A DNA stretch of 64,000 bases, from positions 21,250,386-21,314,385 of the forward strand of contig JAJEKV010000003.1 of NCBI GenBank assembly GCA_021234155.1, given 5' to 3'. The translations under genes and the position numbers were made by a program. The notes below the pieces were generated by a model, which worked only from the letters and a program-made list of their open reading frames with translations, had not been told where the DNA came from and did not search any database. Each line of letters starts with the position of its first letter. The first letter of the stretch is position 1. Origin of the DNA: Isoetes taiwanensis. Its lineage: Eukaryota > Streptophyta > Lycopodiopsida > Isoetales > Isoetaceae. Shown here piece by piece: positions 2,646 to 63,858 of the stretch.

Positions 2646-3736
2646 AAGCAAGGGCGGGCGACCCGGATGCATTACCATATGATCTCACCTTAGATGATGA
2701 AGGGGCGATTCTTATAGCAACCACCCGACCGACCACCTAAGAGGAAATGGACAAAGGGTGCCGAGTGAATACGTTGACCTTGCCAAGACAAATGGCAAGC
2801 TCGACTTAACTCTCTTTCGAGGAAAAAGGAAGCGGAACAAGATGGCCAAACAAGGGATCCTAATCTCTTGTGAGGAAGAGGATGACACCAAGCGCAAATT
2901 GCTCTTGGAGATTACCGTAGCGAAGAAAGAAAGATCTGCTCGGACTTACTCCTTTGTAGAGCTACTGCATACAAGGATACGTTCATGAAGACAGATGTGA
3001 ACGGTGAGACATGTTTTAAGTATGGTTGGCCAACCAATGTAGCAGTTACGCCAATATCTATTTGCCAAGGGGTTACAGCTGTGCGTAGAGGCATGTTCAC
3101 TAAACCGATACCAAGTCACTATTTGCAGCAAGCTAGGGAATTAGCTGACTTGAAAGCTTCTAAGAGGGTCCTAGATCTAGGGAAGGATGTTCAACCTGCA
3201 GTTGTCGAAGGCATAGAGACTTCTGTTTTTGAGAATGAACAGGACAGAGTGGCGCAGCTAGAGGCCATGAACAAGCTGAATAAATACTCTGACCATTATC
3301 CATTGGGTCTTAAGGAAACTTTTGCGATCTATGTGAAGTCCCTCATCCGTTCACCAAGCTCCATTTATGTTAGCAGAAGATATGATCCAGCACATGCCAT
3401 GGAGATTGTTCAGAGCATGATTAGTAATCCAGGTCAAATGCCTATGCCAGCGGATGTGCTACCTTGGGATATGATCTCGAATAAGCTTGCTGTGTGGACG
3501 AACTTCCAGGAGATATTGTTAAATGAAAATATTAAATTCGTCGTCATCGACGGCAGCGATTCTGTTGAGGCAATGAAGGCCCTCATCGGCGGCGAGAACA
3601 AACAGGCCAAAACGCAGCGTTCTACAATCACTATGCGTATAGGAGGTGTGTATCTTGGATGCCAATACTTCACCGCAGATTTGGTCGAGATTAGTGCAAC
3701 TTTGAATGAAATGGGGAAGACATTTCTATACAAAAG
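2646..3736 (+). CDS. ParB-like domain exon, copy 1 (one internal frameshift)
   Basis: Coding similarity to the right-edge gene at 62761-63833 runs throughout. The shared landmarks, in order, are LISCEE-DD, KYGWP, QGVTAVRR/EGVSAVRR, LIRSP, DPAHAM/DPKHAM, DVLPWD, and VVIDGSDSVEAMKALI against IVIDGQHSVEAAKALI. The last motif resembles the DGxHR-x-A signature of ParB/sulfiredoxin-fold proteins, but the key Gln-His is replaced by Ser-Asp here. The stretch needs one frame change near 2985. It ends at a splice donor AAAAG|GTAACT at 3736, in the same phase as the paralogue. Function is unknown; ParB-like is a motif-level resemblance only. Loss of the core motif suggests this copy is inactive or diverged. 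Confidence 0.5.
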
Positions 3737-3770
3737 GTAACTAACTGCATTAGGATGTTAGCATTTTAAT

Positions 3771-6325: not shown

Positions 6326-6381
6326 TTTGTATTGTTTGTGTTATCGTATCTTGCTGACCGGATACATGTTTGATGTTTCAG

Positions 6382-7018
6382 CTTCCATTGCGTTTCTAAG
6401 AAGGTTGTGGTGTTCGACCTAAACGGAGTCCTTTGCAAGACTTTTCTGAAAAATAAAGTGGCTAGAGAACAGTTTCATCAGACACCAGTAGAATCAAACA
6501 CCAAGTGGATCTATCCGCGGCCGCACTTGAAGGAGATGCTAGATGAGGCATTCAGGTTATTTCGAGTTGGTATTTGGTCATCCATGGAACTAAGGAACAT
6601 CAAGGATACTTTGGAGGCACTGGGGGAAATGCGTAGACATTGGTTGACCTTTTGGGATCAGAACAAATGTGTGAAGTTCACTAATCCCAAGGATCCAATA
6701 GGCAAGCCTATCTTCATCAAACACTTGAGTAACATGATGGACGAACTTGGTATCGAGAATAAGGATGATATAATCATAGTGGATGATGATGCTCTCAAAT
6801 GCTTCTACAATCAAACACAGGCCCTGAATCCACCATCTTACGATCCAAAAAACTTTGCGACAGATGATTTTCTACTGAAGTTTGTGTCTATTATGCATAA
6901 TTTGGCTATGGGGATGACGGTGGGTGAAGTGTTAGATTCGTACCCAGAACTGGATAGAACGGCTGACATGGAACCACACCTTGTTAAACACGTGGAAAAA
7001 CATGGATTGCTCCCTTAA
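6382..7018 (+). CDS. FCP1/NIF-type HAD domain, last exon
   Basis: The exon starts after an acceptor at 6381, opens with FHCVSKKVVVFDLNGVLC and runs without interruption to a TAA at 7016-7018, about 210 residues. FDLNGVL occupies the place of the DxDGTL catalytic motif of HAD phosphatases. WSSMELRNI fits motif II and IIIVDDDALKCF the acidic motif IV. PRPHLKEML matches the RPxLxxFL segment of the FCP1/small CTD phosphatase family. The second catalytic Asp is Asn, so phosphatase activity is doubtful; from memory, DLNG variants are common in a plant branch of this family. It could be a separate gene whose first exons I cannot see, but it shares strand and intron-repeat type with the ParB-like exons. 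Confidence 0.65.
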
Positions 7019-11769: not shown

Positions 11770-11844
11770 TTATTAGTTGAGAGAGCAACCCATAGATAAT
11801 ATCCCATATGATAAGTCATGTAATCTAATTAAAGGCAAGGAGCT
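11770..11844. repeat. Left part of dispersed repeat split by the gypsy insertion
   Basis: From TTATTAGTTGAGAGAGCA to AAAGGCAAGGAGCT this matches 45651-45725 with a few substitutions. The match resumes at 24993 after the gypsy element, so the repeat was interrupted by that insertion. Confidence 0.85.
11840..11844. repeat. Target-site duplication GAGCT, left copy
   Basis: GAGCT lies immediately before TGTGACGG of the 5' LTR. The identical GAGCT follows the 3' LTR at 24993-24997. The unoccupied paralogous site has a single GAGCT at 45721-45725. Confidence 0.92.
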
Positions 11845-13480
11845 TGTGACGGTCCAGGGGAATATACGCCATAAATACGTATATTCCTGGATCCGTCACC
11901 ATACAAGTCTATCTTCATAGCCTTGTATACCATAGATTGTGGCACTAGGGGGCATGGCTAAGTTATTTCCATAACTTAGCCCACCATAGGTTAAGCCATT
12001 ATCCACGTGGCCTTAACCTATTGGGGCACCGCCACACAGGACTCACCCGATTGGTGCCACGTGGCATCCTAAGTGGACCTAACTTATATAGGCATAAACC
12101 CTAACCCTAGGCCTCTTTCCAGCTCTAGCACCCAGAGACTCACCTACTTGTTCGAAACCCCGTTTCGAACATCGTTCGTTGTGGCATAGGCTGGTGCAGC
12201 AGCCCCAGTAGGGTAGACCCGTTCTTGGAGGAGGAACAGCAGCTTGTGAGTCGAAGACTATGGAGGCGCCCGGATATGGAGGGAGAGCATCAGGAGCAGG
12301 TATGTAGGTAGTAGTTGTGATAGCTCATCTGGGATTAGCATTCCAGATGTGCTAGTATTTTGTATTTAGAGTAGAGCCATCCTAGAACCCATATTCAACA
12401 TCTTGAACCCTAATCAAGGAACCCTAACTATTGGTTAGTTGTATGATTAGGTTAAGATGTTCTTCTTATGATTATTCTCATGATGTGATGGTTATGTGAT
12501 GTTGGTTGATCATGTTTGCTCCTCTTGTATTGGGAAGGGGGGTAGAGACCTAGGGCCATATGTAGTATGTTCCTAGAGTAGATCCCTTAGTTCCTATTAG
12601 TTGCGGCTCAGGCATAGGAGCCCACCGGGCTATTGAGGCTATGATATGACTCAGCACGGATAACGGGGCTAGAGGGAAAGTGGAGGGAGGATCCCCGCGA
12701 GTGGGGGCCGGGGGATCCCATAGTGGGCTAGGCTTATGGTCTGGTCACTTAGGTGGGGCGAGCATGGGTCCGACACCTCCGGGGCAATGGTGTTGCCCCC
12801 GCTTCTCGGGAGCCGCAAGTGTTGGCTTGGCTCGTTTTGGGGGTCCGGTCAGTGCGAATCGTGTGTCGCCGTCCGCGATTCTCTAGCGCCCACGGCACCT
12901 CTAGACCACAGGAAGGGGAGATGCAACCCTTCCGCCTCATCCGGACCAGGGAGATGCAACACGAGTAGTCCCGATGGGTGATGCCATGGGATTGCGTATC
13001 CGGAAGGCTAGAGTCCTGTCAGAGCCTGATCTAGCCCATCTGCAAAGTATGCACAGGAGGGGCGGATGGAGTGGTCAACCCTAGCCATTGTTCTATGCCA
13101 GCCCTCGCCATTGCCATGACTCGGTCTGCTCTATCTTGAGACCTAGCCCGTCAGTCACCCTCCTTACGAGTCTGAGCCGGGGTAGGAGCTCTCCTGTTTT
13201 ATGGTTTGTGATTATCATCTATGCATTGGATTATGTGTGATGCCCTACCCTTCGAGGTAGTATTTGTATATGTTGATGCTAGTTCTGACGTGTTATCGCT
13301 TCCGCTGTTATAGGAGCCCATAGGGGAAGGGCGCGCAAGACACCTTCGTGTTCCCTTCCCGCACTAAGAGTCACCTCAGAGTGCGGGGTAGACGAAGGGC
13401 CCATGCGGTTGTTGAGCCGGATGGGGGATTTCCTGCCGAGTGTACGGCCGGGCGCCGTATGTTTAGCAGGGAGCGTCACA
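11845..13480 (+). repeat. 5' LTR (1636 bp)
   Basis: It runs from TGTGACGGTCC to GGGAGCGTCACA, with terminal inverted repeats TGTGAC/GTCACA. A direct copy lies at 23353-24992. Long stretches (the first roughly 310 bases, 12220-12605, and 13190 to the end) are identical or nearly so. Differences are crowded in two patches near 12150-12220 and 12605-13185. Confidence 0.95.
12084..12092 (+). promoter_or_regulatory. LTR TATA box
   Basis: TTATATAGG, about 240 bases into the LTR, is the best core-promoter match. The identical sequence occurs in the 3' LTR at 23592-23600. Transcription would begin some 25-35 bases downstream, making the first roughly 270 bases U3. Confidence 0.5.
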
Positions 13481-13481
13481 A

Positions 13482-13493
13482 TGGTATCAGAGC
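13482..13493 (+). other. Primer-binding site for initiator tRNA-Met
   Basis: TGGTATCAGAGC begins one base after the 5' LTR and is the usual plant PBS complementary to the 3' end of initiator tRNA-Met. Confidence 0.92.
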
Positions 13494-13955
13494 AATGTTC
13501 TTGGCTGACCAAGAACTAGCACTGACCATAACCATGAAGTAGTCTAACAGGCCTATAGGGGTGTGAAATAAACATTTCCACCATCGAACCGCGAAAATGG
13601 GGGAAAAATTTTCTCCTAGGTAGTGGGTCAGGACTTAGGTTAAGTGTTAGACGAAGGTTTGAGTGAGTCAAACGCACCTTCTAGTAAAATTGGAGTGAAA
13701 ATCATGCATCTGCATCAAATTTCACCTAAAATGGGTCGAAGAATCATGCCAATCAGAGACCCAGGTGAAAAATGGCGCAAATTCATAGATTACACTTCGA
13801 ACCACTAGAAAAATTCGAAATTCAAGTGTAATATCAATTAATATAGGTTTAATATATTTTAATAATTAAATAACTATTAAATAGGGTGTAATTAATAAGG
13901 GGGGCTAATAAATAGGGGTAATTATGGTAGGAGAATATTCTCAGGGACCCTCCTC

Positions 13956-13963
13956 TTTAAATA
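13956..13963 (+). promoter_or_regulatory. TATA-like box before the H3-like gene
   Basis: TTTAAATA lies about 90 bases upstream of the ATG at 14053, followed by a pyrimidine-rich leader (CTTTCCTCCACC, TTCTCTCTC). The layout is that of an ordinary plant core promoter and leader and suggests independent transcription. Confidence 0.35.
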
Positions 13964-14052
13964 TCTCTGACACCTCATTTTTCCCTCCAAACTTTCCTCC
14001 ACCTTCTCTCTCTTGACCAGCCTATCCCCACCCGTTTTCTAGACCGTTAAAT

Positions 14053-15144
14053 ATGGCCAGAACCAAACAGACCTACAGGAAGCCAGGACAGCGCCCCACA
14101 CTTTCGATGGCGAACCTAGCGGCGGGACGCCATGTGAAGAAGATCCCGGAGCACCTCCGACCCAAGAAGGGGGAAGAGGAGCTCCCCCCTACCAGCAGCA
14201 GCAGCGACGGCACCTATCACGATGCCGAGAGCAGCCCTTCGTCGGCAGGAACACAAAGAACCGACGAATCCCGCCACTTCGGGGCCACAGACACCGAAGT
14301 GGAAGAGCAGGAGGAGGAGCAGGTCCAGCAGCAGGTGGACGAAGCGGGGCCTTCAGCGCCAAGGAAGAAAGGCAAGGAGAAGGTTGCGGAGTGGCCAGAA
14401 GAGAGGGCCGCAAGGAGGAAGAGGGAGCGCGAGGAGGAGCTGCGGCGGCAGGAGCGGAGGACGAAGAGAAGAAACGACGGTCCCCGCCGAACCGTCGTGA
14501 TAGAGGAGCCTCCCCGGCGCGAGGAGGAGCAGGTGGAAGAGGAAGAAGAGCAGGAGGAAGAAGATGAGCAGGGGGAAGGAGCGGACCCGAGACCACCTTA
14601 CCCAGTGTGGCCCAAGCCACCTAAGGTGGTAAAGAAACAGAAGGCGGGCGAGCGGGCCTTCGCCTTGAAGGAGGACCGTCTCTACCGACGCCGCCTCAAG
14701 GCATACCAAGAATACCTTCGTCGGTGGACAAGGTATAATGATTGGTACTGCCGGCAGAACGTCCAGCGCACCGTGGAGGGAGGCCGGCCGCCAAAGAACC
14801 AGCCCAAGCCACCGCCGCCACAGCCCGAGAAGCCGAAAAAGACCCACCATGGGCCTAACTCGGTACACTCCCGTGTCTTCCGGGAGATTAGACACTTTCA
14901 ACAGTGCACTAATCTCCTTATTAGGAAGGCACCCTTTGAGCGACTCATGCGGGAGGTGATGCAGCAGTTCGTCACCGACTACAGAGTGACGTCGCTCACA
15001 ACTCGGGTGTTGCAAGTAGCCGCTGAGGCCGAGCTCACCCAGTTGTTTGAGGAAGGGAACCTCTGCGCGATCCACGCGAAGAGGGTGACCTTGATGCCCA
15101 AGGACATACACTTGGCGCGTCGCATCCGCAAGGAATACCCTTGA
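14053..15144 (+). CDS. Histone H3-like protein carried by a Ty3/gypsy element
   Basis: This is a 363-residue frame with an ATG start, uninterrupted. Residues 1-10 are [10 protein letters not shown], almost the canonical H3 tail: R2, T3, K4, R8 and K9 in H3 numbering are kept, A7 is Tyr and S10 is Pro. Residues about 45-260 are a long charged insert: acidic runs, a KR-rich block with [12 protein letters not shown], and a Pro/Lys-rich hinge. Residues 277-363 (from 14881) are a full H3 histone fold, including [39 protein letters not shown] and [10 protein letters not shown]. Loop 1 has the ordinary H3 length, so it is not an obvious CenH3. Normal H3 is about 136 residues, so this is H3 split by a roughly 220-residue insertion. 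The gene lies between the PBS and gag. It may enter chromatin, act as a decoy, or bind the element's own chromodomain; none of these is shown. Confidence 0.93.
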
Positions 15145-15930: not shown

Positions 15931-17434
15931 ATGGCGCCATCAAGCTTTCTTAGATGGTACAATGACTCTAATCATATCCGTGAACTCCCTGCTAAGCAAG
16001 CCTTTCATGTCTTCGATCATCTCTTTGATCTTCATGCCACCTTGACCAGAACCCCCTATTACACTGACATCATGTGTCAATATGATCAGCAAATTCTGCC
16101 CTCGGAAGTTAGCTTGCCACCTAGGGGAGGGAAATGGGTTTCTCTAGATTCTCTTGCTCAAGCCATAGGTGGGGGATCCAGGGGCAAGAACAAGCTGTGG
16201 GATAGAACTAGAAACATGCCAGACTACATGACCTGTAAGCATCATAGGCATAGGTATCTTTCAGGCCAAGCGGCCTTAACATTGTTCATGCAGTATAGGG
16301 CAGTTAACCAACCAGGGGAGCCATCAATCCAACCCTTGGATTTGGCACCACTCGACACCCGAGCAGCACAGATAAGCATTCAGGAGATCGAGACCTCAGC
16401 ATACGAACACTACGGCTCCACATCCGAAACACCTATGTTGCAGATCGAACACGACTATGAAGAGGAGGAGGAAGAGAACCCAAGTTGGGAGATGAGGGAG
16501 GCAGGAAGAATGGAGAGGCGATAGCTTCGACAACAAGAAGTTCTAAGGCGAGACTTTGAGCCACCAAGTAGGTATTACGGCCCTTACCCGGTGATTATCG
16601 GCCGGCGAGGAGTACATATTCGCCACCGACATCCTCAACCTTCCCTACTGTCAGGAGGAGGGCCTCAGGATCGACGAGCTTCTAAGCCTCATAGCACAAG
16701 AGCAGGGCAGTGACTTCATCGACTACTCCTACCAAGAGATCCCGGGAGGTAGCCGGCGACACTCCTATGCAAGGGAAACCATGTCGGACATCCGGTATCA
16801 ACAGATTAGGTACATGTTTCAAAGAGCCAGAACCCATCATCGAAGAAGAATTTCAAGAAATCCAAAGCGGGTTGTACAAGCCGGGGAAGAGGCCCAAGCT
16901 CCGCCCGACCCGGTCGCTCTCAGTATGCGCGAAGCATCTAGCAAGCATCAACTTGGAGAACGCGAACAACTATGTGGAGGGATCACGAAGATCTGATTGC
17001 ATTAGATGTGTTCGTGGCGGCACAAAGGAAGAGTACGGGGGAGGCGGGGCAGCAGCAGGGGGCAAATCACTCGGTACTACCTTAGGCCCTTAGTCAAGGC
17101 GGATGATAGTCTTCCACAAGGAATTCAGCCCAAGGGGGTGAAGAATCCGTGGGCTCCTCATAGCACTCTCGGGGGTTTGGACATCATGCCGGGATAGATT
17201 TTGGAATGGACCATGTGATACTCTTCAAAAGATCAAGTAGCCCTTCATGCCCTCGACCATGAGGGGCCACCTCGAGGAGATCGCGACTTGTCGGTAGTGG
17301 CGGCAAGCGCACGAGAACTCCCAAAGACCACCACGTGGTAGCAAGAGCATTGGAGGGGGGATCGGCGGCTAGAATCTTGCAGAACATGGGCAAGGGCACA
17401 GGATTCAAGAAAATCAAGAACTTCTTCAAGCGAC
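15931..17434 (+). pseudogene. Second accessory gene of the gypsy element, unrecognised, frame-broken
   Basis: An ATG at 15931 opens 197 residues (MAPSSFLRWYNDSNHIRE and so on) to a TAG at 16522. Segments include LPAKQAFHVFDHLFDLH, an acidic EEEEEEN run and a basic end. After the stop the coding sense continues in other frames: GEEYIFATDILNLPYCQEEG near 16595, FQEIQSGLYKPGKRPK near 16850, ITRYYLRPLVKADDSLP near 17070 and VALHALDHEGPPRGDRD near 17240. The intact gene would have been about 500 residues. I see no transmembrane segment, so an envelope role is not supported, and I recognise no domain. It has its own TATA box and lies between the H3-like gene and gag. Confidence 0.45.
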
Positions 17435-17766: not shown

Positions 17767-18484
17767 ATGTCACCAGAGGCAGTCAACGCAAGGTTAGTGC
17801 AGATGAGGAATCAGATGCAACACCTCATCAACTGGGCGACACCTCTCATGAATGCAGGGAAGATGGTCACCCACCTCCACCTTGTTTTAGGGTGGTGGCC
17901 GAAGTTCCTCGGCCAGGAAGGGGAGGGCAAACGAGGGGAATGTCGGGGATAGGAGAAGGAAGAGGAGAACCGAGGAGTCCATCATCATCTAGCTCCGGCT
18001 CATCGGGCGAGCTCTTCCGGTGAGGACAGCTCTAGCTCGATAGTGACTCGCACACCTAAGGCAAGAAAAAGGGCAAGAAAAGGCAGGATGATTACGAGGA
18101 AAAAGGTGGATAGTGCTATGAGCAATGTATGGAAGACAAGGAAGGCTGGGCGGTTCGGGGAAAGACAGTCGAGGCATGGAAGCTGAAGCATGGCTTGATG
18201 AAATGGAAGAATTTGGTAACTCTTACGGGATGAAAGACAAGGATATAGGGAAAGTTGCTACAGCTAACCTCATTGGACCGGCAAGGATCTGGTGGAAGGG
18301 ATATGCTAAGTCTAACAAGCTGAAGAGGAACAATTGCAGATTTAAGACTTTTAGCAAGGCTTTCCGTAAGCACTATGTACCAAGGTCTCATACTAGTAGA
18401 CAGATCCAGCAGTTTTACAGGTTGAATCAGGGTACCTTATCAGTGGCTAAGTATTCCGAAGAATTTATGAGGCTCGAAATTTGA
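17767..18484 (+). pseudogene. gag capsid region, frame-broken
   Basis: An early piece MSPEAVNARLVQMRNQMQHL starts at 17767. After a low-complexity charged linker, 18125-18484 carries a Retrotrans_gag-like domain: AEAWLDEMEEFGNSY, IGPARIWWKGYAK, FKTFSKAFRKHYVP and LNQGTLSVAKYSEEFMRL. The W-W and YxxxF-xxL spacing is usual for Ty3/gypsy capsid. A stop at 18482 and several frame changes separate it from the zinc knuckle. It would form the virus-like particle; this copy could not without repair or help in trans. Confidence 0.75.
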
Positions 18485-18759
18485 ATGTTCACGGAGTCTC
18501 GGAGAGGCAAGCCGTGGATACTTACATTGAGGGTTGAACAGCAATATCAAGAGGCTTGTTAGAGCAATCAACCCGAAGTCAGTCGCGCAGGCAGAAGATA
18601 AAGCTATAAGTTTGGAGGAGGCACCAGCAACTCCAGCAGAGAAGCGATCAACCGAGGGGTAAGAGTTGAGGCGTGCTCGGGGACAATATCGGGGTAAGCA
18701 ATCAGCGGCTACACCATCGAGGGGAGTCGGCAGCAAGGTAAGGATAAGAGCAAAGCTTT

Positions 18760-20052
18760 TTGGGGACCGTAAGCCCTGGGGAATGCATCGGGGGAGCGGC
18801 GGCTCTTAAGCGTCTCCTAGACAGTCTGCCGAAGGAAAAGAGACAGGAATGCATTGAGAAGAAGTTATGCTTCAGGTGCTTCCAGCCAGGGCACCGGACA
18901 CATGATTGTCCATTCGTCATGCAGTCAGCCTTGGCAGAACTCTTGGATTGGGACTCTCCAACAGAAGCGGACGAGGACGATGACCAGCAGGAGGGCCACG
19001 ACTTCATAGATGGTGAGTGTCACATATGTGCAAACATTGAGTCAGATGAGATAGAGAATCAGTCAACTGTCATCGCGGCTGATGGGATCATAGATAGTAA
19101 TCCTTATGTAGTCCTCATAGATACAGGTAGCTCTCATAATTTTGCATCTCCTAGATTGGCTGCTCTAATGAAGAATAAGGTATTGAAGTCTAAGCCAAGG
19201 CCAGTAGCTATGGCAAATGGCGCCATTCGGCACACTAAGGGGAGGAGGATCACCTTTGACATAGACCTTAGTGGGGCTAAGTGGCCGATGGGAGCAGAAG
19301 TCATGGATATTGGAAGGTATGATCTTATTGTGGGAATGGAATTCTTGAAGCCAGCTAAAGCAGTAATTGATTGTGACCGGAACGAAGTCACCATGACGGC
19401 ACCGGACGGCAACAAGTTGATAGTCAAAGGTAAGAAGCTAGATTCTCCTATGCAGTGTATTTCTTTGAAGCAGCTAAGGAGGAGTATAGAAAGGAATAAG
19501 GTGGATTACATCTTGAGGATGGAATCAGTGGAGCCAGGCAGACAGGATGGAAGTGACATAAAGGGAAATCAGTTGCCCAGGCAGATAGCAAGGCTTATTT
19601 CAGAGTTCAAGGATGTATTTCCGGATGAAATCCGGCAGCTGCCACCTTATAGGGGTGTGGAATGTGAGATCACATTGGCTCCGGATGCGAAGCCTACCAG
19701 TAAGGCACCATATAGAATGAGCATCCCAGAATTGACTGAGCTCAAGAAACAGCTGCAGGAATTGCTCGAGCTTGGATTCATAAGGGCAAGTGTGTCTCCT
19801 TTTGGAGCACCTATCCTCTTCGTAAAGAAGAAAGACGGGAGCTTAAGAATGTGCATAGACTATCGCCAGCTCAACAAGCAGACGATAAAGAATAAGTATG
19901 CATTGCCGAGGGCAGATGACCTAATGGATCAGCTACAAGGAGCAAAGGTATTCTCTAAGATTGATTTGAGATCAGGATACCATCAGATAAGAATTAAAGA
20001 AGAGGATATCCATAAGACCGCTTCGGAAGCGGTATGGTCACTTGAGTTCTGA
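18760..20052 (+). pseudogene. gag-pol: CCHC knuckle, protease and N-terminal half of RT
   Basis: One 430-residue frame. The zinc knuckle [14 protein letters not shown] is at residues 37-50. The aspartic protease motif [12 protein letters not shown] has its catalytic Asp at about residue 121. RT begins with [17 protein letters not shown] and continues through [33 protein letters not shown] and [14 protein letters not shown]. The frame ends at a TGA just after [13 protein letters not shown], where related elements continue unbroken, so small indels lie at about 20020-20052. The first Met call is nominal; the frame is open upstream of the knuckle. Confidence 0.88.
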
Positions 20053-20345: not shown

Positions 20346-20586
20346 TTGATTGGCCAGCTCAAGGAATGTGGGAAGTAAGAAGCTTTTCGGGTTGGCGGGG
20401 ATACTACTGAGAAAGTTCGTGAAGGACTTTGCTAAGTGGGCGTCCCCTCCGCCGGGGACCTCACTAAGGCCAAGAAGATTAAGGATTGGGCTAGCCATTG
20501 GTTAGAAAGTCCAAGCTTCTTTTGAGAAGCTTAAAGAGGCCTTAACAACACACGGTGCTTGTTCTCCGGATCCGAGTAAGGATAAG

Positions 20587-22116
20587 TTGGTGGCAACAGA
20601 TGCAAGCAAGATAGCAACAGGGGCAGTCTTGATGCAAGAAGGAAGGGTAGTCGCCTACGACTCGAAGAAGATGAACGACGCCGAGCAACGCTACCCAACC
20701 CATGATCAGGAGCTGCTAGCCATTGTCAGGGCATTGAGGATATGGAGGCATTATTTGCTGGGAAGGAAGTTTCAGTTAGATACTGATCACCAGAGCCTTC
20801 AGTATCTTTTCACCCAGCCACTCCTCAACTTAAGGCAAAGGAGGTGGATGGAATTCCTTGAGGAGTACGATTTTGATATTATATATAAGCCTGGTAAGCT
20901 TAATGTTGTAGCAGATGCCCTCTCTAGGAGGCCATTTCAGGCAAGGACGCATTGTAATGCGATTTCCACTCTTTCGAGTGAGTTTGGCAAGAAGATTGAG
21001 GAGTCCTTGCCAACCGATGTGGACTTCAAGGAGGTGTGGGAAAGCCTCTCCAAGGAAGCCAGAACAGACAAGGAGCGGGAAGCCTTCAAGCATTTTAAAA
21101 AGGAAGGCAACCTGTTGTACCACAAGCATAAGTTGTGTGTGCCCGAATCTTCAGGGGTAAGGAAGTTAATTCTTCATGACACACATAACAGCCCAATAGC
21201 GGGGCATGCTGGCTTCATGAAGACCTATTTCAAGATTCGAAGTAGTTACTTCTGGCCAGGAATGAAGAGGCAGATAGCTGCATATATTCGGGATTGCCAG
21301 TTATGTCAGCAGACCAAGGCGGAGCAACTTCGGATTCCGGGTGCTTTAGAGCCATTGGGGGTGCCAAATGCAAAGTGGGAGGTCATAAGCATGGATTTCA
21401 TCACAGGACTCCCTAGAACTCTTCGAGGCAAGGATGCATTGATGGTTGTCGTAGATAAGTTATCTAAGATGGCACATTTCGTGCCTTGCAAGACGACAGA
21501 CACCGCATTAGACACTGCCAAGTTATTTGTAAGGGAGATTTTTAGACTCCATGGCATGCCTCGGGAGATAATATCTGATAGAGATTCTAAGTTCATGAGT
21601 GCCTTTTGGCAGGATCTCTTTAGCACCATCCAGACGAAGCTCTCCATGAGTACGGCGTATCATCCTCAAACAGATGGCCAGACGGAAAGGACCAATCGGA
21701 TCATTGAAGACATGCTTCGAAGCTATGTGTGGAACAAGCAGTCCAAGTGGGATGAGTACATCCACTTGGTGGAATTCGCCTACAACAGTGCCAAGCAGGA
21801 GTCATCGCAGATGTCTCCTTTCATGATAAATTATGGCTACCAGTGCTTAACCCCGGATACCTGGCACAATCCTGTGTCCAAGGTAGAAGTATCCCAGCAG
21901 ATGTTAGGGGACATGCAGCAGCTAGTAGAGGAAGTAAGGGGTTATTTATTGGCAGCAAGAAGTCGGCAGAAGAGTGTAGCCGACAAGCACAGGACCGTAA
22001 GGGAGTTTAAGGTGGGCGATACCGTTTGGTTGAAGATCAAGGTGAAGCAAGCCAAGTCTTGGATTGGGAGCTGCAAGAAGCTTGCCCCTAGGTGGGCTGG
22101 GCGTTCAAGATTTTAG
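20587..22116 (+). CDS. pol: RNase H and integrase
   Basis: A 509-residue open stretch. RNase H is at residues 1-115 (VATDASKIATGAVLMQ with Asp5, THDQELLAIVRALRIWRHYL with Glu42, DTDHQSLQYL with Asp66). The integrase zinc finger is at residues 197-240 (HDTHNSPIAGH then CQLC). The catalytic core has Asp270 (SMDFITGLP), Asp331 (ISDRDSKF) and Glu367 (GQTERTNR), with the usual 35-residue D-E spacing. It ends at a TAG at 22114, where a lost C and a lost GA near ILERVG keep the later frame but create the stop. All catalytic residues are present. Confidence 0.92.
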   Translation: MVATDASKIATGAVLMQEGRVVAYDSKKMNDAEQRYPTHDQELLAIVRALRIWRHYLLGRKFQLDTDHQSLQYLFTQPLLNLRQRRWMEFLEEYDFDIIYKPGKLNVVADALSRRPFQARTHCNAISTLSSEFGKKIEESLPTDVDFKEVWESLSKEARTDKEREAFKHFKKEGNLLYHKHKLCVPESSGVRKLILHDTHNSPIAGHAGFMKTYFKIRSSYFWPGMKRQIAAYIRDCQLCQQTKAEQLRIPGALEPLGVPNAKWEVISMDFITGLPRTLRGKDALMVVVDKLSKMAHFVPCKTTDTALDTAKLFVREIFRLHGMPREIISDRDSKFMSAFWQDLFSTIQTKLSMSTAYHPQTDGQTERTNRIIEDMLRSYVWNKQSKWDEYIHLVEFAYNSAKQESSQMSPFMINYGYQCLTPDTWHNPVSKVEVSQQMLGDMQQLVEEVRGYLLAARSRQKSVADKHRTVREFKVGDTVWLKIKVKQAKSWIGSCKKLAPRWAGRSRF

Positions 22117-22119
22117 AGA

Positions 22120-22479
22120 GTGGGCTCTCAAGCCTACAAGTTGGATCTTCCAGCCCATCTTAAGGTCCACAAGGTCTTCCACGTAAGTTTATTAAAAGGC
22201 ACAATCCTAACCACGAGGGAGGTTTTGGATACTCCAACCTTGTTGGAAATGACGGAGGAGCAAGTAGAAATAGTGCCCGAGTTACTTCTTGATAAGTCAT
22301 TCAAGAAGACTAGGAGGTCTCAGTTCCTCCAATATTTGGTTAAGTGGAAGCACTTACCCGTGGAAGATGCGACATGGGTATTGAAGCAAGATTTGGAGAA
22401 GCAATACCCAGAGTTTATGAAGGAATTTGATGGGCGAGTCGTCTCCGACTTGGTCGACCCCGACTTGCCAGGTGGTTAG
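22120..22479 (+). CDS. Integrase C-terminus with chromodomain
   Basis: Same frame as the integrase, after one stop. SQAYKLDLPAHLKVHKVFHV is the usual linker. FLQYLVKWKHLPVEDATWV, then LEKQYPEFMKEF, is a chromodomain with the YLVKWK-xx-Ts-ATW pattern. Such chromodomains are thought to steer integration to methylated H3, and this element also encodes an H3-like tail. Confidence 0.9.
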   Translation: MGSQAYKLDLPAHLKVHKVFHVSLLKGTILTTREVLDTPTLLEMTEEQVEIVPELLLDKSFKKTRRSQFLQYLVKWKHLPVEDATWVLKQDLEKQYPEFMKEFDGRVVSDLVDPDLPGG

Positions 22480-23352: not shown

Positions 23353-24992
23353 TGTGACGGTCCAGGGGAATATACGCCATAAATACGTATATTCCTGGAT
23401 CCGTCACCATACAAGTCTATCTTCATAGCCTTGTATACCATAGATTGTGGCACTAGGGGGCATGGCTAAGTTATTTCCATAACTTAGCCCACCATAGGTT
23501 AAGCCATTATCCACGTGGCCTTAACCTATTGGGGCACCGCCACACAGGACTCACCCGATTGGTGCCACGTGGCATCCTAAGTGGACCTAACTTATATAGG
23601 CATAAACCCTAACCCTAGGCCTCTTTCCAGCTCTAGCACCCAGAGACTCACCTACTTGTTGAAACCTGGTTTTGAACATGCTCGTTAATGGCATAGGCTG
23701 GTGCAAAGAGCCAGTGAGAGGTAGACCCGTTCTTGGAGGAGGAACAGCAGCTTGTGAGTCGAAGACTATGGAGGCGCCCGGATATGGAGGGAGAGCATCA
23801 GGAGCAGGTATGTAGGTAGTAGTTGTGATAGCTCATCTGGGATTAGCATTCCAGATGTGCTAGTATTTTGTATTTAGAGTAGAGCCATCCTAGAACCCAT
23901 ATTCAACATCTTGAACCCTAATCAAGGAACCCTAACTATTGGTTAGTTGTATGATTAGGTTAAGATGTTCTTCTTATGATTATTCTCATGATGTGATGGT
24001 TATGTGATGTTGGTTGATCATGTTTGCTCCTCTTGTATTGGGAAGGGGGGTAGAGACCTAGGGCCATATGTAGTATGTTCCTAGAGTAGATCCCTTAGTT
24101 CCTATTAGTTGCGGCCTGTGCATAGGAGCCCACCAGGCTATTGAGGCTATGATATGACTCAGCACCAGATAACGGGGCTAGAGGGAAAGTGGAGGGAGGA
24201 TCCCTGCCGAGTGGGGGCTTCGGGGGATCCCATAGTGGGCTAGGCTTATGGTCGGTCACTTCGTGTGGGCCGAGCATGGGTCCGACACCTCCTGGGGCAA
24301 TGGTGTTGCCCTGCTTCTCGGGAGCTGCAAGTGTTGGCTTGGCTCTCGTTTTGGGGGGTTAGTCGGGTACGAATCGTGTGTCGTCACGATTCTCTAGCCG
24401 CCCACGGCACCTCTAGACCCTGGGAAGGGGAGATGCAACCCTTCCTGCCTCATCGGACCAGGAGATGCAACTGGAGTAGTCCCGATGGGTGATGCCATGG
24501 GATTAGCGTGATCCAGGAAGGCTAGAGTCCTGTCGAGCCCTGATCTAGCCCATCCGCAAAGTATGCACGGGGAGGGGCGGATGGAGTGGTCAACCCTAGC
24601 CATTGTTCTATGCCAGCCCTGCGCCATTGCCATGACTCGGTCGCTCTATCTTGAGACCTAGCCCGGTCCCCCCTCCTCCCACAGTCCGTAGGGGTAGGAG
24701 CTCTCCTGTTTTATGGTTTGTGATTATCATCTATGCATTGGATTATGTGTGATGCCCTACCCTTCGAGGTAGTATTTGTATATGTTGATGCTAGTTCTGA
24801 CGTGTTATCGCTTTCGCTGTTATAGGAGCCCATAGGGGAAGGGCGCGCAAGACACCTTCGTGTTCCCTTCCCGCACTAAGAGTCACCTCAGAGTGCGGGG
24901 TAGACGAAGGGCCCATGCGGTTGTTGAGCCGGATGGGGGATTTCCTGCCGAGTGTACGGCCGGGCGCCGTATGTTTAGCAGGGAGCGTCACA
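23353..24992 (+). repeat. 3' LTR (1640 bp)
   Basis: A direct copy of the 5' LTR with the same ends. The patches that differ (about 23660-23730 and 24114-24690) contain many single-base insertions and deletions in GC-rich sequence, while the rest is virtually identical. Confidence 0.95.
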
Positions 24993-25372
24993 GAGCTATT
25001 TTGATATGAAAGGCAACTGCCTACTAAAAAAGGCTAAAGTCGTGGAGAGATCTATAAATAGAAGCTGAACTTCAGTTGGAAATATCTCTGCAACCAGAGC
25101 TCCAATTGAGGCGACCTTTACTTCATTGGAACCGGCTCGGAGCCTAGTTTCCGAATTGGATGTCTTATAATTCATCCGTATGCGGGAGTAATGGCTGAAA
25201 ACGTGACAAGGGGTCACAAATTATTGCTATAGGGACATTACAGATTTGCAATTGCTTTCTGATCTGTGGCTACTTGGAGTAGTGAAATTATCCTGGAGGG
25301 CTAATAAGCCAGATGCCAGAGCTTTGTATTTGCCATAGCACTTGTGTTTTGCCTTGTATTTGTCATAGCACT
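24993..25372. repeat. Right part of the split dispersed repeat, with GAGCT duplication
   Basis: It begins with the target duplication GAGCT and continues GAGCTATTTTGATATGAAAG, matching 45721-46150 through TTGCCATAGCACTTGTGTTT. Homology fades after about 25372. Together with 11770-11844 it forms one interrupted copy. Confidence 0.85.
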
Positions 25373-39470: not shown

Positions 39471-39494
39471 TTTCCCTGATTACCCTTTCTCTTT

Positions 39495-42400
39495 TTGGAT
39501 ATGAAGATTTTATCCTGGAACCTTAGAGGCATCAAAGGCCCTCTTAAAAGGAGACGAGCCATTGCTCAGATGAAATTATACAATGCTGACATAATTCTTC
39601 TCCAAGAGATCAAGTTACCATCATTTGAATGTAGCAATTTAGGTGAATGGATCCTCCCAAACTCCTCCTCTGTTTGGATTGAGTCTGTTGGAACTAGTGG
39701 TGGTCTTGCTATAATATGGAAAAGTGATATTACTCATATCACTATTCATAATGGTCCCTCTAAAACCTGGCAAGCTGTCATTCTCTCCATTTCCAACTCT
39801 ATCTTTGGGGTTGTTAATGTCTATGCTCCCACTTCTCCAAGTGAAAGAGAACCTGTTTGGAATGAGATTAACTCTTGGCTGTGTACCCAAAATCTGGATA
39901 ATTGGATTCTTGCTGGTGACTTTAATAATACACCATCCTGGGAATTAAAGTTAGGGAATAAGATCAATATGACTAGATCTGAAAAACAGGCCTGGGATTC
40001 TCTTCTAAATGACAATGGCCTGATTTACATCCCTTCTTCCACTGCTACTTATACCTGGTCCAATAAACAGAAAGACAAAGCCCGTGTGTATTGCACTTTG
40101 GATAGATTTTATGTGTCCAATCCTGCCACCTCTTTCTGGGACAATAGCTATGTTTCTAGTGATGAAGGAACCTCCATCTCTGACCATCAACCTCAGTTTC
40201 TTCACACTTCTCATGTCACTAAAATCCAGAGGCAAGGTAGTACTCCTTACAAATTCAATATCTCTCTTTTAGACAATGAGAACTTTTGCTCTCATTTTGT
40301 TGCCTTCTATGAGAACCTAACTGAGAGAATGAATAGTTCGGATGTTAATAATGGTAATATGCAGCATAAGAATACCTTTTACTCTAAAATTAAAGCTGTG
40401 AAGTCTTGGATTAAAACTTGGTCTAAAAACATGCACCTTAATAGCTGTGAGGAAAGAAACCAACTTCTTAAGTTCATGAAAGATATCAGGTCCTTACTTC
40501 AGCAGGATCCTACAAATCTAAATCTGCAGATAGGTGAGGAAATTTTGGAAAGGAAAATTAGAAGCATTGAAGAGATTGAGGCCAAGGGTTCTGCTATCAG
40601 ATGCAAGATAAAATACACCAATAAAATGGACTCTGGTAGCTCTAAATTTTTCTTTAGGGTAGCTAAGAGTAGAGTGTTGAGAAATTCTATTTCTGAGGTC
40701 ATTGATGACAATGGCTCCATGCAGTCTTCTCATTCTGACATTGCCACTTTCTTCAAGCATAAATATATGGATATTTTCCAAAACAAACCTATTCCTCCTA
40801 ATGAATTGGTAGAGGCAAATGAATTTAGAGATATAGTGAATAATATTTTGCCATCTGCTCCTGAAGTGATGAATGATTCCATGGTTACTCCTCCTTCTCA
40901 ACAGGAGATTCTTTCCACTCTATCCTCTTTCAGTAAGGGTAAATCTCCTGGTCCAGATGGCTTACCTGCTGAATTCTATATAAAGTTCTGGGATATCTTC
41001 AAATCTGATCTTACCTCCATGGTTCGTGAATTTTGGAATAATGGTTATCTTCAGACCTCCATTGCTAGTGGCTTTATCTCTCTGATTCCAAAAGTTGATC
41101 ATCCCTGCAAATTCCAAGATTGGAGGCCCATCTCTCTTACCAACACCACTTACAAGCTGTGTGCCAAAATCATTGCTCTCAGAATTAACAGCTTCGTGCA
41201 GAGAAATATAAGTCCAAGTCAATCAGCCTTTCTCCCTAATAGATATATTCTTGACAATTATGTGGCTGCTATGGAAGGTTTGCACTGGAATAAAATTTCT
41301 AATCAAAATTGCATTCTTCTTAAGCTGGACTTTAAAAGAGCCTTTGATTCAGTTAGATGGGATTTCCTACAGTTTGCTATGGTTAAACTTGGTTTCCATC
41401 CTAAGCTTATTAATCTTATTCTTGGTCTAAATCGAGATCTAAGTCTCATTGTTCTTGTTAATGGTGTACCTTCGAGTTTCTTCTCCTTATCTTGTGGTGT
41501 TAGGCAAGGCTGTCCCCTTGCCCCATATTTGTTCCTTGTAGCAGCTGAAATGTTATCCAGAGTCATCTCCTATTATCAGGATAACGGATTAATCAGAGGT
41601 CTCAATCTTCCAGACTCAGATGATCACCTTACAATGCTTCAATACGCTGATGACACTTTCTCTTTCCTTTATGCTGATCTGGCCAATATTGACTGTTTTC
41701 TTAATGTTATCAAAAAATTTTCAGCTGCTTCTGGTATCTATCTTAACATCAACAAAAGCCTTATTGTAGGAGACATTCCTGATCACCAACTGCTTGGTAT
41801 TAATGTTCTCCCATCTGGTCATGCCACTAAACTCCTGGGGATGCCTTTATCTCTAGATCATAGTTTAAAAGGTCTTTGGGAGCCTATTATTCAAAGAATA
41901 AAGAAAAAGCTGAATAACTACAGGAATTACCTCTCCCTAGCTGGCAGGACTGTTATAGCAAACTCTGTCCTTGCAAGTTCTCATGTTTACTTCTCCACTG
42001 CTCTTGTTGCACCTAAATGTGTTTATATGGATCTAGAAAAAATTATCAGGAATTTCATTTGGAAGGGCAGTCATCTAGTCAACTGGAACTCCATTTGTAA
42101 GCCAAAAAGTATTGGGGGTCTTGGCTGCAAAAATCTCTTCCTCCAAGCTCAAGCTCTTGCAGGTAAATTTGTTTGGAAAGCTATTTATGGGAACCAATCC
42201 CCAGCCTACAAGTTTGTCAGATACTGGATCAATCAGAGTCGACCTTCTGGTCACCCATCTATTCAGCACTTATTGCCCAATTCTGCTTTCTTTCATCTGA
42301 AAACTGCTCCCAACACCTCTCCTCTAATGAGCAATATGATTAAAGCTTGGAATTCAATTTCTCAGCACTTTCAATTCATCTCTGCTGATAAACTTCATTG

Positions 42401-42908
42401 TGATACCCCTATTTTTTGGAATCCTATTTTAGCTGATCATAGATCCTGCTTTCTGGCCATTAAACATCCCAAAATCTGTAAGAAATGGCATGATGCTGGG
42501 TTCTACTTCATCAGAGATCTGTTTGTTGGAGATAGAATTATCTCTTGGACTGCTTTAAAACACATTATTAGGGGTACCTCTTCTGATAGAAAGATCTATT
42601 CTCTTATCAAGCCTTTTCTCTCTAATCTTTCTCCTAACTCTGGGAAAGGAGACTGGTCTTTGAACGATAAATTTGATTACAAAGTGAAAAATGTGTACAC
42701 TGCTATAGCCACTGGTCCTTTTGATAGCAAGGCTATAACTAAATGGGCATTAATCATGATCAGCTTAAAGTTCTTTTCAAGAATGTCTGGAATTCTTATT
42801 GCCCTCCTAGAATCTCCTATTTCATATGGCTTGTTGCTAATGGCAGTCTTAACAATTTACATTCTATGTCTAAGAGATATCCAAATACTGTGGCCAACTG
42901 TCCTCTAA
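39495..42908 (+). CDS. LINE ORF2: APE-type endonuclease and reverse transcriptase
   Basis: Starts at 39495 (TTG) or at the ATG two codons on (39501); the endonuclease domain begins MKILSWNLRGIKGPLKRR. Endonuclease landmarks are LLQEIKLPS (Glu), VNVYAPT, WILAGDFNNTP and ISDHQPQ (His). RT follows: SKGKSPGPDGLPAEFY, LIPKVDHPCKFQDWRPISL, LLKLDFKRAFDSVRW, GVRQGCPLAPYLFL and LQYADDTFSFLY (catalytic YADD), then SLAGRTVIANSV of the thumb. The frame is correct to about 42745 (AITKWALI), after which one lost base moves the sense to the next frame. Nearly all catalytic residues are intact, which is unusual among the relics here. Confidence 0.93.
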   Translation: MDMKILSWNLRGIKGPLKRRRAIAQMKLYNADIILLQEIKLPSFECSNLGEWILPNSSSVWIESVGTSGGLAIIWKSDITHITIHNGPSKTWQAVILSISNSIFGVVNVYAPTSPSEREPVWNEINSWLCTQNLDNWILAGDFNNTPSWELKLGNKINMTRSEKQAWDSLLNDNGLIYIPSSTATYTWSNKQKDKARVYCTLDRFYVSNPATSFWDNSYVSSDEGTSISDHQPQFLHTSHVTKIQRQGSTPYKFNISLLDNENFCSHFVAFYENLTERMNSSDVNNGNMQHKNTFYSKIKAVKSWIKTWSKNMHLNSCEERNQLLKFMKDIRSLLQQDPTNLNLQIGEEILERKIRSIEEIEAKGSAIRCKIKYTNKMDSGSSKFFFRVAKSRVLRNSISEVIDDNGSMQSSHSDIATFFKHKYMDIFQNKPIPPNELVEANEFRDIVNNILPSAPEVMNDSMVTPPSQQEILSTLSSFSKGKSPGPDGLPAEFYIKFWDIFKSDLTSMVREFWNNGYLQTSIASGFISLIPKVDHPCKFQDWRPISLTNTTYKLCAKIIALRINSFVQRNISPSQSAFLPNRYILDNYVAAMEGLHWNKISNQNCILLKLDFKRAFDSVRWDFLQFAMVKLGFHPKLINLILGLNRDLSLIVLVNGVPSSFFSLSCGVRQGCPLAPYLFLVAAEMLSRVISYYQDNGLIRGLNLPDSDDHLTMLQYADDTFSFLYADLANIDCFLNVIKKFSAASGIYLNINKSLIVGDIPDHQLLGINVLPSGHATKLLGMPLSLDHSLKGLWEPIIQRIKKKLNNYRNYLSLAGRTVIANSVLASSHVYFSTALVAPKCVYMDLEKIIRNFIWKGSHLVNWNSICKPKSIGGLGCKNLFLQAQALAGKFVWKAIYGNQSPAYKFVRYWINQSRPSGHPSIQHLLPNSAFFHLKTAPNTSPLMSNMIKAWNSISQHFQFISADKLHCDTPIFWNPILADHRSCFLAIKHPKICKKWHDAGFYFIRDLFVGDRIISWTALKHIIRGTSSDRKIYSLIKPFLSNLSPNSGKGDWSLNDKFDYKVKNVYTAIATGPFDSKAITKWALIMISLKFFSRMSGILIALLESPISYGLLLMAVLTIYILCLRDIQILWPTVL

Positions 42909-62760: not shown

Positions 62761-63833
62761 CTTCCAAGAGAGAACTAGTTACATCATCTTCTGCACCATC
62801 AAAGAAACCCAAGAGGAGATAGATCGAACTCTTGGCATAAAGCTAATTGATGACAGCAGAACATGCGAGCTAAGTTAGGACTTGCCAGAGACAGTATTTG
62901 TTGAGGGGTCTGAATGGTATGTTACTGTGAGCAGGGCAGAAAGTATGACGTGGTCCTGTATTCAAAGGAGAACAAAGACACGGCCTTCAAAAAAGCAGGG
63001 TTGATCCTTTCATGCGAGGAGCTTGATGACCACATCTGTGTCTTCATAATAAAGAAGACCGTAAAGAAAAATCTCAGCATTTCCAAATACAATGCAGGTA
63101 TAGATGGATTCAGGCCAGATAAGACAGCTGACGATGTTACAAAGTATGGCTGGCCCATTGAAGGCTCAAACCATACAGTTCGTTCTGTACGTGAAGGAGT
63201 ATCTGCAGTCCGACGAAGTTTGCAGAAGAAACCATCTTCAAGCTTCTACATATCTAGTTTTGGTGGTAGTGGCGATGCACTTGAGTCAGAAACTTTCCCC
63301 CTAGTACCTTTGCCAAAGCCAGTGAAGGAAACGGATATTGAAAAGAAATCAAGGGTTGATGCTGTAGACAAGCTTATGAAATTCAAGCAATGGTATCCAC
63401 TTGGTTTGGATGTCACAAAAAGGATAGCTATTGACAAGCTGATTAGATCTCCTAGAGCATCTTTCATATCTAGGTTCTTTGATCCCAAACATGCCATGAG
63501 GATACAGAAGTCCATGGTTGAATATCCCACCACAGTACCAAATCCAGCTGATGTTCTACCATGGGACTCAGTGAATGACAAGCCATACCCATGGAAGACA
63601 CGGGATGACCTAAGGAAGAGCGACACGATGCGCTACATTGTCATTGATGGGCAGCACTCAGTTGAGGCAGCGAAGGCGCTTATAGAGAAAATGGATAAGA
63701 TAGGTGCCAAGGAGTACATGGAGCACTTCAGTTACAGGCAATGGCGAATCCTTAGTCATTACATGCCTCAACTTGCACTGACTACAATAAGTGCAGACTT
63801 GAACACAACCGCAAGGGTAGTACAATACAACTC
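62761..63833 (+). CDS. ParB-like domain exon, copy 2 (gene continues beyond the window)
   Basis: After TTATTTTACAG the exon begins with a basic piece (SSAPSKKPKRR) that soon meets stops. From about 62914 it is open for 307 residues: GRKYDVVLYSKENKDTAF, LILSCEELDDHICVF, DVTKYGWPIEGSNHT, VREGVSAVRRSLQKKPSS, LIRSPRASFISRFFDPKH, NPADVLPWDSVNDKPYPW and YIVIDGQHSVEAAKALIEK. DGQHSVEAA is a good ParB-like signature (DGxHRxxAA). It ends ISADLNTTARVVQYNS at TC|GTAAGT (63833), the same phase as copy 1. ParB-fold proteins bind CTP or DNA or act as nucleases in bacteria; no role is known to me for this eukaryotic branch. One or two frame slips near 62800-62914 may hide the true N-terminus. Confidence 0.55.
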
Positions 63834-63858
63834 GTAAGTGCCATTGTTTCTTATTAAC

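Follow-up and report, generated by a model that had tools for sequence, protein, structure and literature searches.

The window that we analyze here is a stretch of 64,000 nucleotides from Isoetes taiwanensis (contig JAJEKV010000003.1, positions 21,250,386 to 21,314,385), and it includes a Ty3/gypsy element whose first long open reading frame (ORF1) encodes a histone H3-like protein. The initial annotation, made from the letters alone, had described a single element complete with LTRs, target site duplication, primer-binding site (PBS) and polypurine tract, and all of these are found at the positions collected in Table 1. We take the primer-binding site to be of the initiator tRNA-Met type. 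Pfam matches give the order gag, protease, reverse transcriptase, RNase H, integrase, and then chromodomain, in interrupted frames. Because the first five are present together with a chromodomain, the element is, from domain content and order, a chromodomain Ty3/gypsy.

Table 1. The element around ORF1, in positions of the window.
Feature	Positions	Strand	Evidence
Target site duplication GAGCT	11840..11844 (5' copy), 24993-24997 (second copy)	+	present in two copies
5' LTR, TGTGACGG...GCGTCACA	11845..13480	+	LTR pair; end recurs upstream of C copies
Leader, LTR to H3 ORF	13481..14052	+	matched in 11/11 further C copies, 82-95% identical
Primer-binding site TGGTATCAGAGC	13482..13493	+	exact core also in A/B and C copies
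ORF1, histone H3-like protein, 363 aa	14053..15144	+	ORF, Pfam and solved H3 chains
H3-like N-terminal tip, Met and H3 residues 1-9	14053..14082	+	comparison of 21 C copies
H3 histone fold, residues 265-363	14845..15141	+	Pfam, solved H3 chains, omega
ORF2, distant relative of other H3 elements' ORF2	15931..16524	+	hhalign E 4e-6; hmmsearch 15.8 bits
gag fragment	18122..18484	+	PF03732 E 3.8e-13
Protease and start of reverse transcriptase	18748..20052	+	PF08284, PF00078
RNase H and integrase	20506..22116	+	PF17917, PF17921, PF00665
Chromodomain	22117..22479	+	PF00385 E 6.1e-12
Polypurine tract AAGGGGGAGAA	23342..23352	+	adjoins 3' LTR
3' LTR	23353..24992	+	pairs with 5' LTR

The element resembles plant chromoviruses in its LTRs, its tRNA-Met type PBS, its gag, the protease-RT-RNase H-integrase order and the chromodomain, and differs from them in that a histone H3 ORF and a second additional ORF, in this order, separate the PBS from gag. 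Other plant Ty3/gypsy elements, Ogre/Tat and Athila, also carry an additional ORF (upstream of gag in Ogre), but they are not known as chromodomain elements, and we know of no histone fold in their extra ORFs. SM-Tcn1 of Selaginella is a 5.7 kb element with gag and pol only (PMC2864245).

Differences between the two LTRs are clustered, at 12139-12238 and at about 12538-13323, and there are mismatch-free stretches of about 160-300 bases. Because of this clustering and these long identical stretches, we regard the insertion as probably young and the sequence as locally erroneous; the patches in which 11845-13480 and 23353-24992 disagree look like local assembly error, not age. The breaks in gag-pol of this copy may in part be sequence errors as well. 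The initial annotation had read an intact H3 frame next to a broken gag-pol as fitting selection on the family or a recent capture. Both halves of that observation stand, but as evidence for selection the contrast within this one copy is weak, because some of the gag-pol damage may come from errors in the sequence. The evidence for selection given below comes from the family and not from the window copy alone.

Elsewhere in the window, a LINE-type ORF of 1142 codons encodes endonuclease and reverse transcriptase in a single open frame (39480-42908), and there is an NLI-interacting-factor-like phosphatase domain of host type (6374-7018, PF03031 E 2.2e-15). Two further open frames (2886-3740 and 62914-63837), neither matching Pfam at 0.001, have PADVLPWD in common by eye, and are perhaps an unnamed repeat family.

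The H3-like protein of ORF1

The intact ATG-to-stop frame that the initial annotation had proposed is present; an A at -3 and a G at +4 flank its start codon, and other ATGs occur in the leader ahead of it. So is the full H3 fold claimed for its C-terminal part. Residues 248-359 match the Pfam core histone family PF00125 with 104.1 bits, against a cut-off of 26.4 (E 7.6e-30), and the best PDB matches of the protein are H3 chains (E 6.1e-30). Over 95 fold residues, ORF1 has a mean identity of 59% to eight host H3 loci. Chance similarity to H3 was rejected as an explanation of ORF1. CENH3, which has a longer loop 1 than H3, was rejected as its identity: there is no longer loop 1 in ORF1, and residues 276-361 of the fold align to H3 without gaps.

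The layout of the protein is an H3-like tip, then a long charged insert, then the H3 fold. In the alignment to solved H3, residues 239-250 pair ungapped with H3 8-19, and residues 276-361 pair ungapped with H3 48-133, with three extra residues ahead of the first helix. Because residues 239-250 align gap-free to H3 8-19, the insert lies inside the H3 tail. The earlier description, a tail separated from the fold by about 220 charged residues, was right about the charged insert, which has about 230 residues, and needed correction in its position, which is within the tail. Judged by its sequence, ORF1 is an H3 with the tail opened after about residue 9 by this insert. The direct joining of tail to fold (ARTKQTARKS) is absent: the tip is there, the insert comes next, and S10 is replaced. 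Models of the fold, made from the domain alone and together with 21 H3-type proteins, have low confidence (mean pLDDT 52.5 and 50.3), and we take the helices in them to be placed as in H3.

A family of elements that carry H3

We refer to the subfamily of the window as C, and to two more distant subfamilies as A and B. A genome search with the window protein finds at least 112 relatives of ORF1, the window included, with 74-100% identity (the best candidates were scored, 112 among 25,999 first-look candidates, so that the counts are lower bounds). Residues 1-363 are covered fully by 91 of the 112, and 77 have no stop. Our C sample consists of 21 copies, that is, the window and 20 copies fetched at steps down the ranked list, two of them with a stop.

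A second search of the genome, with the histone family, gives at least 150 matches (150 scored among 8705 first-look candidates, all of them matching). Fifteen cover the profile from position 2 and are host-H3-like, and the eight of these that were fetched are plain H3. The other 135 begin later in the profile; in 130 the match is free of stops, and 36 are in open frames of at least 400 codons. One match that starts at profile position 6, in a 139-codon open frame (G000:C1064:3399639-3399992), is perhaps a divergent host H3 variant. The initial annotation had proposed looking for further elements with this frame, and had allowed that it might exist in only this copy. The latter is contradicted by the at least 112 C relatives and the 135 further H3-like matches, among which are the A and B copies described next, and a single-copy artefact is rejected as the source of ORF1.

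From the 135 we took 20 with long open frames, a choice that favors intact copies; 18 belong to subfamily A and two to subfamily B. All 20 have element-type sequence ahead of the H3 fold, and in all 20 the fold ends the open frame, with the frame of one copy (L019) extending 22 residues beyond. The N-terminus is complete in nine A copies (MPRFKLT or MSRFKLT) and in one of the two B copies (MEEVKQV). Both subfamilies have a different N-terminal domain ahead of the fold, and their fold is closer to H3 than that of C. In the A copy that we scanned, the histone family alone exceeds the Pfam cut-off, and residues 1-345, compared with the 1480 proteins out of 5.8 billion that came up as candidates through shared words, have no match at E <= 10.

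The H3 ORF has a constant place in the element. The LTR end and the leader precede it in all 11 further C copies examined (the plus-strand ones of the 20), with the exact primer-site core in 10 of them. For A and B, the exact PBS core is found upstream in 14 of the 20 copies and is not exact in six; where an exact core and a complete N-terminus occur together (eight copies), the ORF starts 678-721 bases past the core. These positions contradict the alternative, named in the initial annotation, of a host pseudogene inserted secondarily into the element; a host H3 pseudogene with its own flanks is excluded by copy number, by the low omega reported below and by the constant place in the element.

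A second ORF follows the H3 ORF in 19 of the 20 A/B copies, L013 being the one without it (for this count, L011 and L028 were read through the longer tiles L029 and L031). This ORF2 has about 290 codons (L029:6630-7505 and relatives). We aligned 14 of the 19, four of the five left out matching in pieces only, and 12 of the 14 have no stop in the stretch that matches. The ORF2 of the window is related to it at a distance: it scores 15.8 bits, where the highest of 500 shuffles reaches 5.0, and a plain tblastn search at 1e-4 misses the relationship. Another conserved stretch lies between ORF2 and gag (L029:8011-8388, EYEERI...); it is matched in 17 of the 23 sequences searched, itself included, and may be part of a spliced or longer product.

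Further downstream, the A copies L017/L033 and L013/L034 have gag through chromodomain and a second LTR, while gag and protease are matched in L029/L030 and gag only in L031/L032. The RNase H-integrase of the window is 79-83% identical to that of L017/L033 and L013/L034. No long ORF lies closer to the 5' end than the H3 ORF, which precedes gag, in the window's element or in these four A/B copies. At least three subfamilies of a chromodomain Ty3/gypsy lineage carry an H3 gene, as their first long ORF, between PBS and gag.

As for its origin, a tree that includes the 21 C copies groups A, B and C with support 90, and A with B with support 95 (95 sites taken as ungapped slices, an H3 set of two host and five other sequences, and nine of the 18 A copies). 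In an earlier tree with the window as the sole C sequence, the window was placed beside tardigrade H3, probably a long-branch effect. The codon identity between groups is near what codon usage would lead us to expect, and silent sites neither support nor exclude one capture. From the tree, we favor one capture of H3 that would then have diverged into A, B and C. Compared with the window, C copies (L035-L065) are 86.5-97.0% identical in their LTR ends and 82-95% in their leaders, versus often about 50% at third positions of the ORF, and some of them show abrupt shifts in identity from one part of the ORF to the next. This contrast would be explained if element lineages had exchanged modules. 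The mosaic silent sites of C copies suggest template switching between element lineages; because of this mosaicism, dates and trees are approximate.

We looked for relatives outside this genome and found none among the best 120 of 1726 proteins with the whole ORF as query, nor among the best 120 of 4745 proteins with residues 285-459 of an A copy, in protein collections that may lack the host's own proteins. By name, the listed matches are histones or uncharacterized proteins with histone domains, and the five sequences that we read carry more than one H3; among 211 proteins, only those of the window and the A copy have a single C-terminal H3 fold. A scan of viral contigs with the A copy gave 29 pattern matches, none of them confirmed as a relative. 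A literature search, whose scope left aside most subscription papers and preprints, found no histone-carrying retrotransposon in the listed titles and openings of abstracts.

Selection and conserved residues

Differences among the 21 C copies follow the codon, with 0.14, 0.11 and 0.39 at first, second and third positions of the ORF (0.38 at third positions in a 12-copy subset), and the leaders of the same 12 copies, split by phase in the same way, have 0.13, 0.12 and 0.12, that is, no phase. Since mutation is blind to codon phase, the phase of the ORF differences indicates selection on the protein. First and second positions vary about as much as the leader, so there is no constraint visible relative to the leader, and it is against silent sites alone that the strength of selection can be gauged. 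We ascribe this parity to modules of different age.

The initial annotation had suggested computing dN/dS for the histone fold across copies, and the result is an omega of about 0.04 for A/B and 0.06-0.08 for C, values that are rough as silent sites are near saturation. For the A/B fold (20 copies, 190 pairs) the median dN is 0.029 and the median dS 0.72; restricted to dS values from 0.05 to 5, which leaves 154 pairs, the median omega is 0.041. Within the nine full-length A copies, the fold has the lowest pooled omega (0.044), against 0.12 for the basic stretch, 0.13 for the N-terminal domain and 0.22 for the linker. The C fold has an omega of 0.080 pooled and 0.062 as the median (125 usable of 210 pairs, 21 copies); pooled values elsewhere in C are 0.106 for the tip, 0.130 for the linker, 0.119 for the basic stretch and 0.113 for the whole. 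The bias towards high-scoring copies lowers dN somewhat, but it would not yield an omega of 0.04-0.1 for neutral copies with this much silent divergence. Protein changes are selected against in the H3-carrying lineage.

Which residues are kept? Of the 95 fold positions, 35 are the same as in host H3 in all 41 element copies compared, and they include N108-V117, M120, K122, D123, L126-R131, R72 and R83. R116 is kept in 41 of 41 copies, R69 and T118 in 40, and R63 in 39. We take the kept positions to include the H3-H3' surface, which also binds ASF1, together with the arginines that contact DNA (R63, R69, R72, R83 and R116). As to change, C departs from host H3 by 22 near-fixed differences that lie at position 48 or beyond (26 if the start of the fold is counted, four of which sit in a stretch misregistered by the three-residue insertion), and A/B has ten. 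They include position 87, in both C and A/B, and position 90, in C, presumably within the stretch that sets chaperone preference.

The N-terminus is MARTK in all 21 C copies. The tip reads MARTKQTARK in 13, where it is identical to that of host H3, MARTKRTYRK in one, and has another form in seven. A1, R2, T3, K4, T6, R8 and K9 are invariant in the 21 copies, K4 and K9 being kept despite silent change; the codons in use number three for A1, four for R2, two for K4 and four for T6. Either A or Y occupies position 7. At position 10 there is P, Y, A, T or F, and serine in none of the 21, so that the C copies differ from host H3 in lacking serine 10 as well as in having the tail opened by a long insert. 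The ARTKQT tip is absent from the ten full-length A and B copies, and tail mimicry is therefore not general. A derivation of the A (MPRFKLT) and B (MEEVKQV) N-termini from ARTKQT is not supported, as the alignment is ambiguous.

What the element's histone may do

Three features, a fold under strict conservation, DNA-contact residues that are retained and a tail that differs, point to a protein that goes into nucleosomes or tetrasomes and alters the signals of the tail. We give somewhat better than even chances to a protein that pairs with H4, enters tetrasomes or nucleosomes, and alters chromatin marking and silencing. The H3-like protein would be made from the RNA of the element; its fold would pair with host H4 into tetrasomes or nucleosomes, on element DNA or in host chromatin; and the element-specific N-terminal part would substitute for the normal H3 tail and so change marking or silencing. 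Met would be removed, as it is before Ala, and the writers and readers of H3K4 and H3K9 would then find a substrate or ligand in the free end of the C protein, ARTKQTARK (or ARTKQTYRK). This exposed end would present K4 and K9 in their natural setting, but serine 10 and the sequence that normally follows in the tail are missing. It is plausible that the element acts on host chromatin. Binding of H4 by the C fold is predicted and not certain, because of its 22 near-fixed differences from host H3.

The kept residues have other possible explanations. The protein could be a soluble decoy that titrates H4, ASF1, or proteins that modify or read H3, and weakens silencing without entering nucleosomes; we regard this as a serious minority possibility. 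A decoy would keep the same residues, because the H3-H3' surface also binds ASF1; the C tip retains the portion of the tail seen by the K4 and K9 enzymes and readers, and the long charged insert could obstruct packing. However, a decoy would have no need of the DNA-contact arginines, which are kept in 39 to 41 of the 41 copies, and the full-length A/B copies have no tip and yet keep the fold even more strictly. It is unlikely that the fold serves replication instead, as a basic packaging protein that condenses or escorts cDNA or RNA, or brings the pre-integration complex into the nucleus. Its place as the long ORF nearest the 5' end, before gag, would suit such a cofactor, as would the strongly charged insert of the window's ORF1, but generic packaging leaves unexplained why the H3-H3' surface is conserved in 41 copies and the K4/K9 tip in 21.

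The incorporation into chromatin that we prefer has also to be weighed against a pairing of the histone with the integrase, whose chromodomain would read the element's H3, or its chromatin, and direct new copies to chromatin held by the family. We find this quite improbable. The window's element and two A copies do have a chromodomain, and there is a precedent in MAGGY, whose chromodomain binds H3K9me2/3 and is said to target integration (PMC3350952). However, the two A copies combine a chromodomain with no K9 tip, and the chromodomain of the window seems to lack the aromatic cage when read against the HP1 residues. Barely credible is a functionless passenger, the element having picked up a host H3 gene or pseudogene. 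Pieces of host genes are commonly captured by plant retroelements, but at least 112 C matches, the A and B subfamilies, a constant place in the element and the suppression of protein change relative to silent change all speak against it; for the family, this reading is contradicted by the evidence for selection.

More speculatively, the element could run its own chromatin: an H3 with K4 and K9 and without S10 would pack the element's DNA or its surroundings, so that host marks are used, silencing is escaped and the site of insertion is chosen, perhaps as read by the chromodomain. We would not expect this to be right, but if it were, a mobile element would be writing part of the histone code with its own histone.

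Other mobile genomes encode core histones. Giant viruses carry histones, and a bracovirus carries an H4 with an added N-terminal tail; those are DNA viruses, unlike the LTR retrotransposon here, in which the histone is an H3 and the extra part is within the tail. The influenza protein NS1 has a short peptide that copies the H3 N-terminus, at its C-terminus and with no histone fold, whereas the window's element has tip and fold in one protein. An H3 kept by an LTR retrotransposon is new to us; the element itself is an ordinary chromovirus, and the claim of novelty concerns the histone that it carries, not the type of element.

The carried copies form a natural series of H3 that shows which residues tolerate change, with 35 of 95 fold positions constant in 41 copies. 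H3 is among the most conserved proteins of eukaryotes, and it is central to the silencing of transposons. An H3 kept by a retrotransposon, with a selected fold and, in C, a selected K4/K9 tip, would show that silencing can be attacked or used at the level of the nucleosome.
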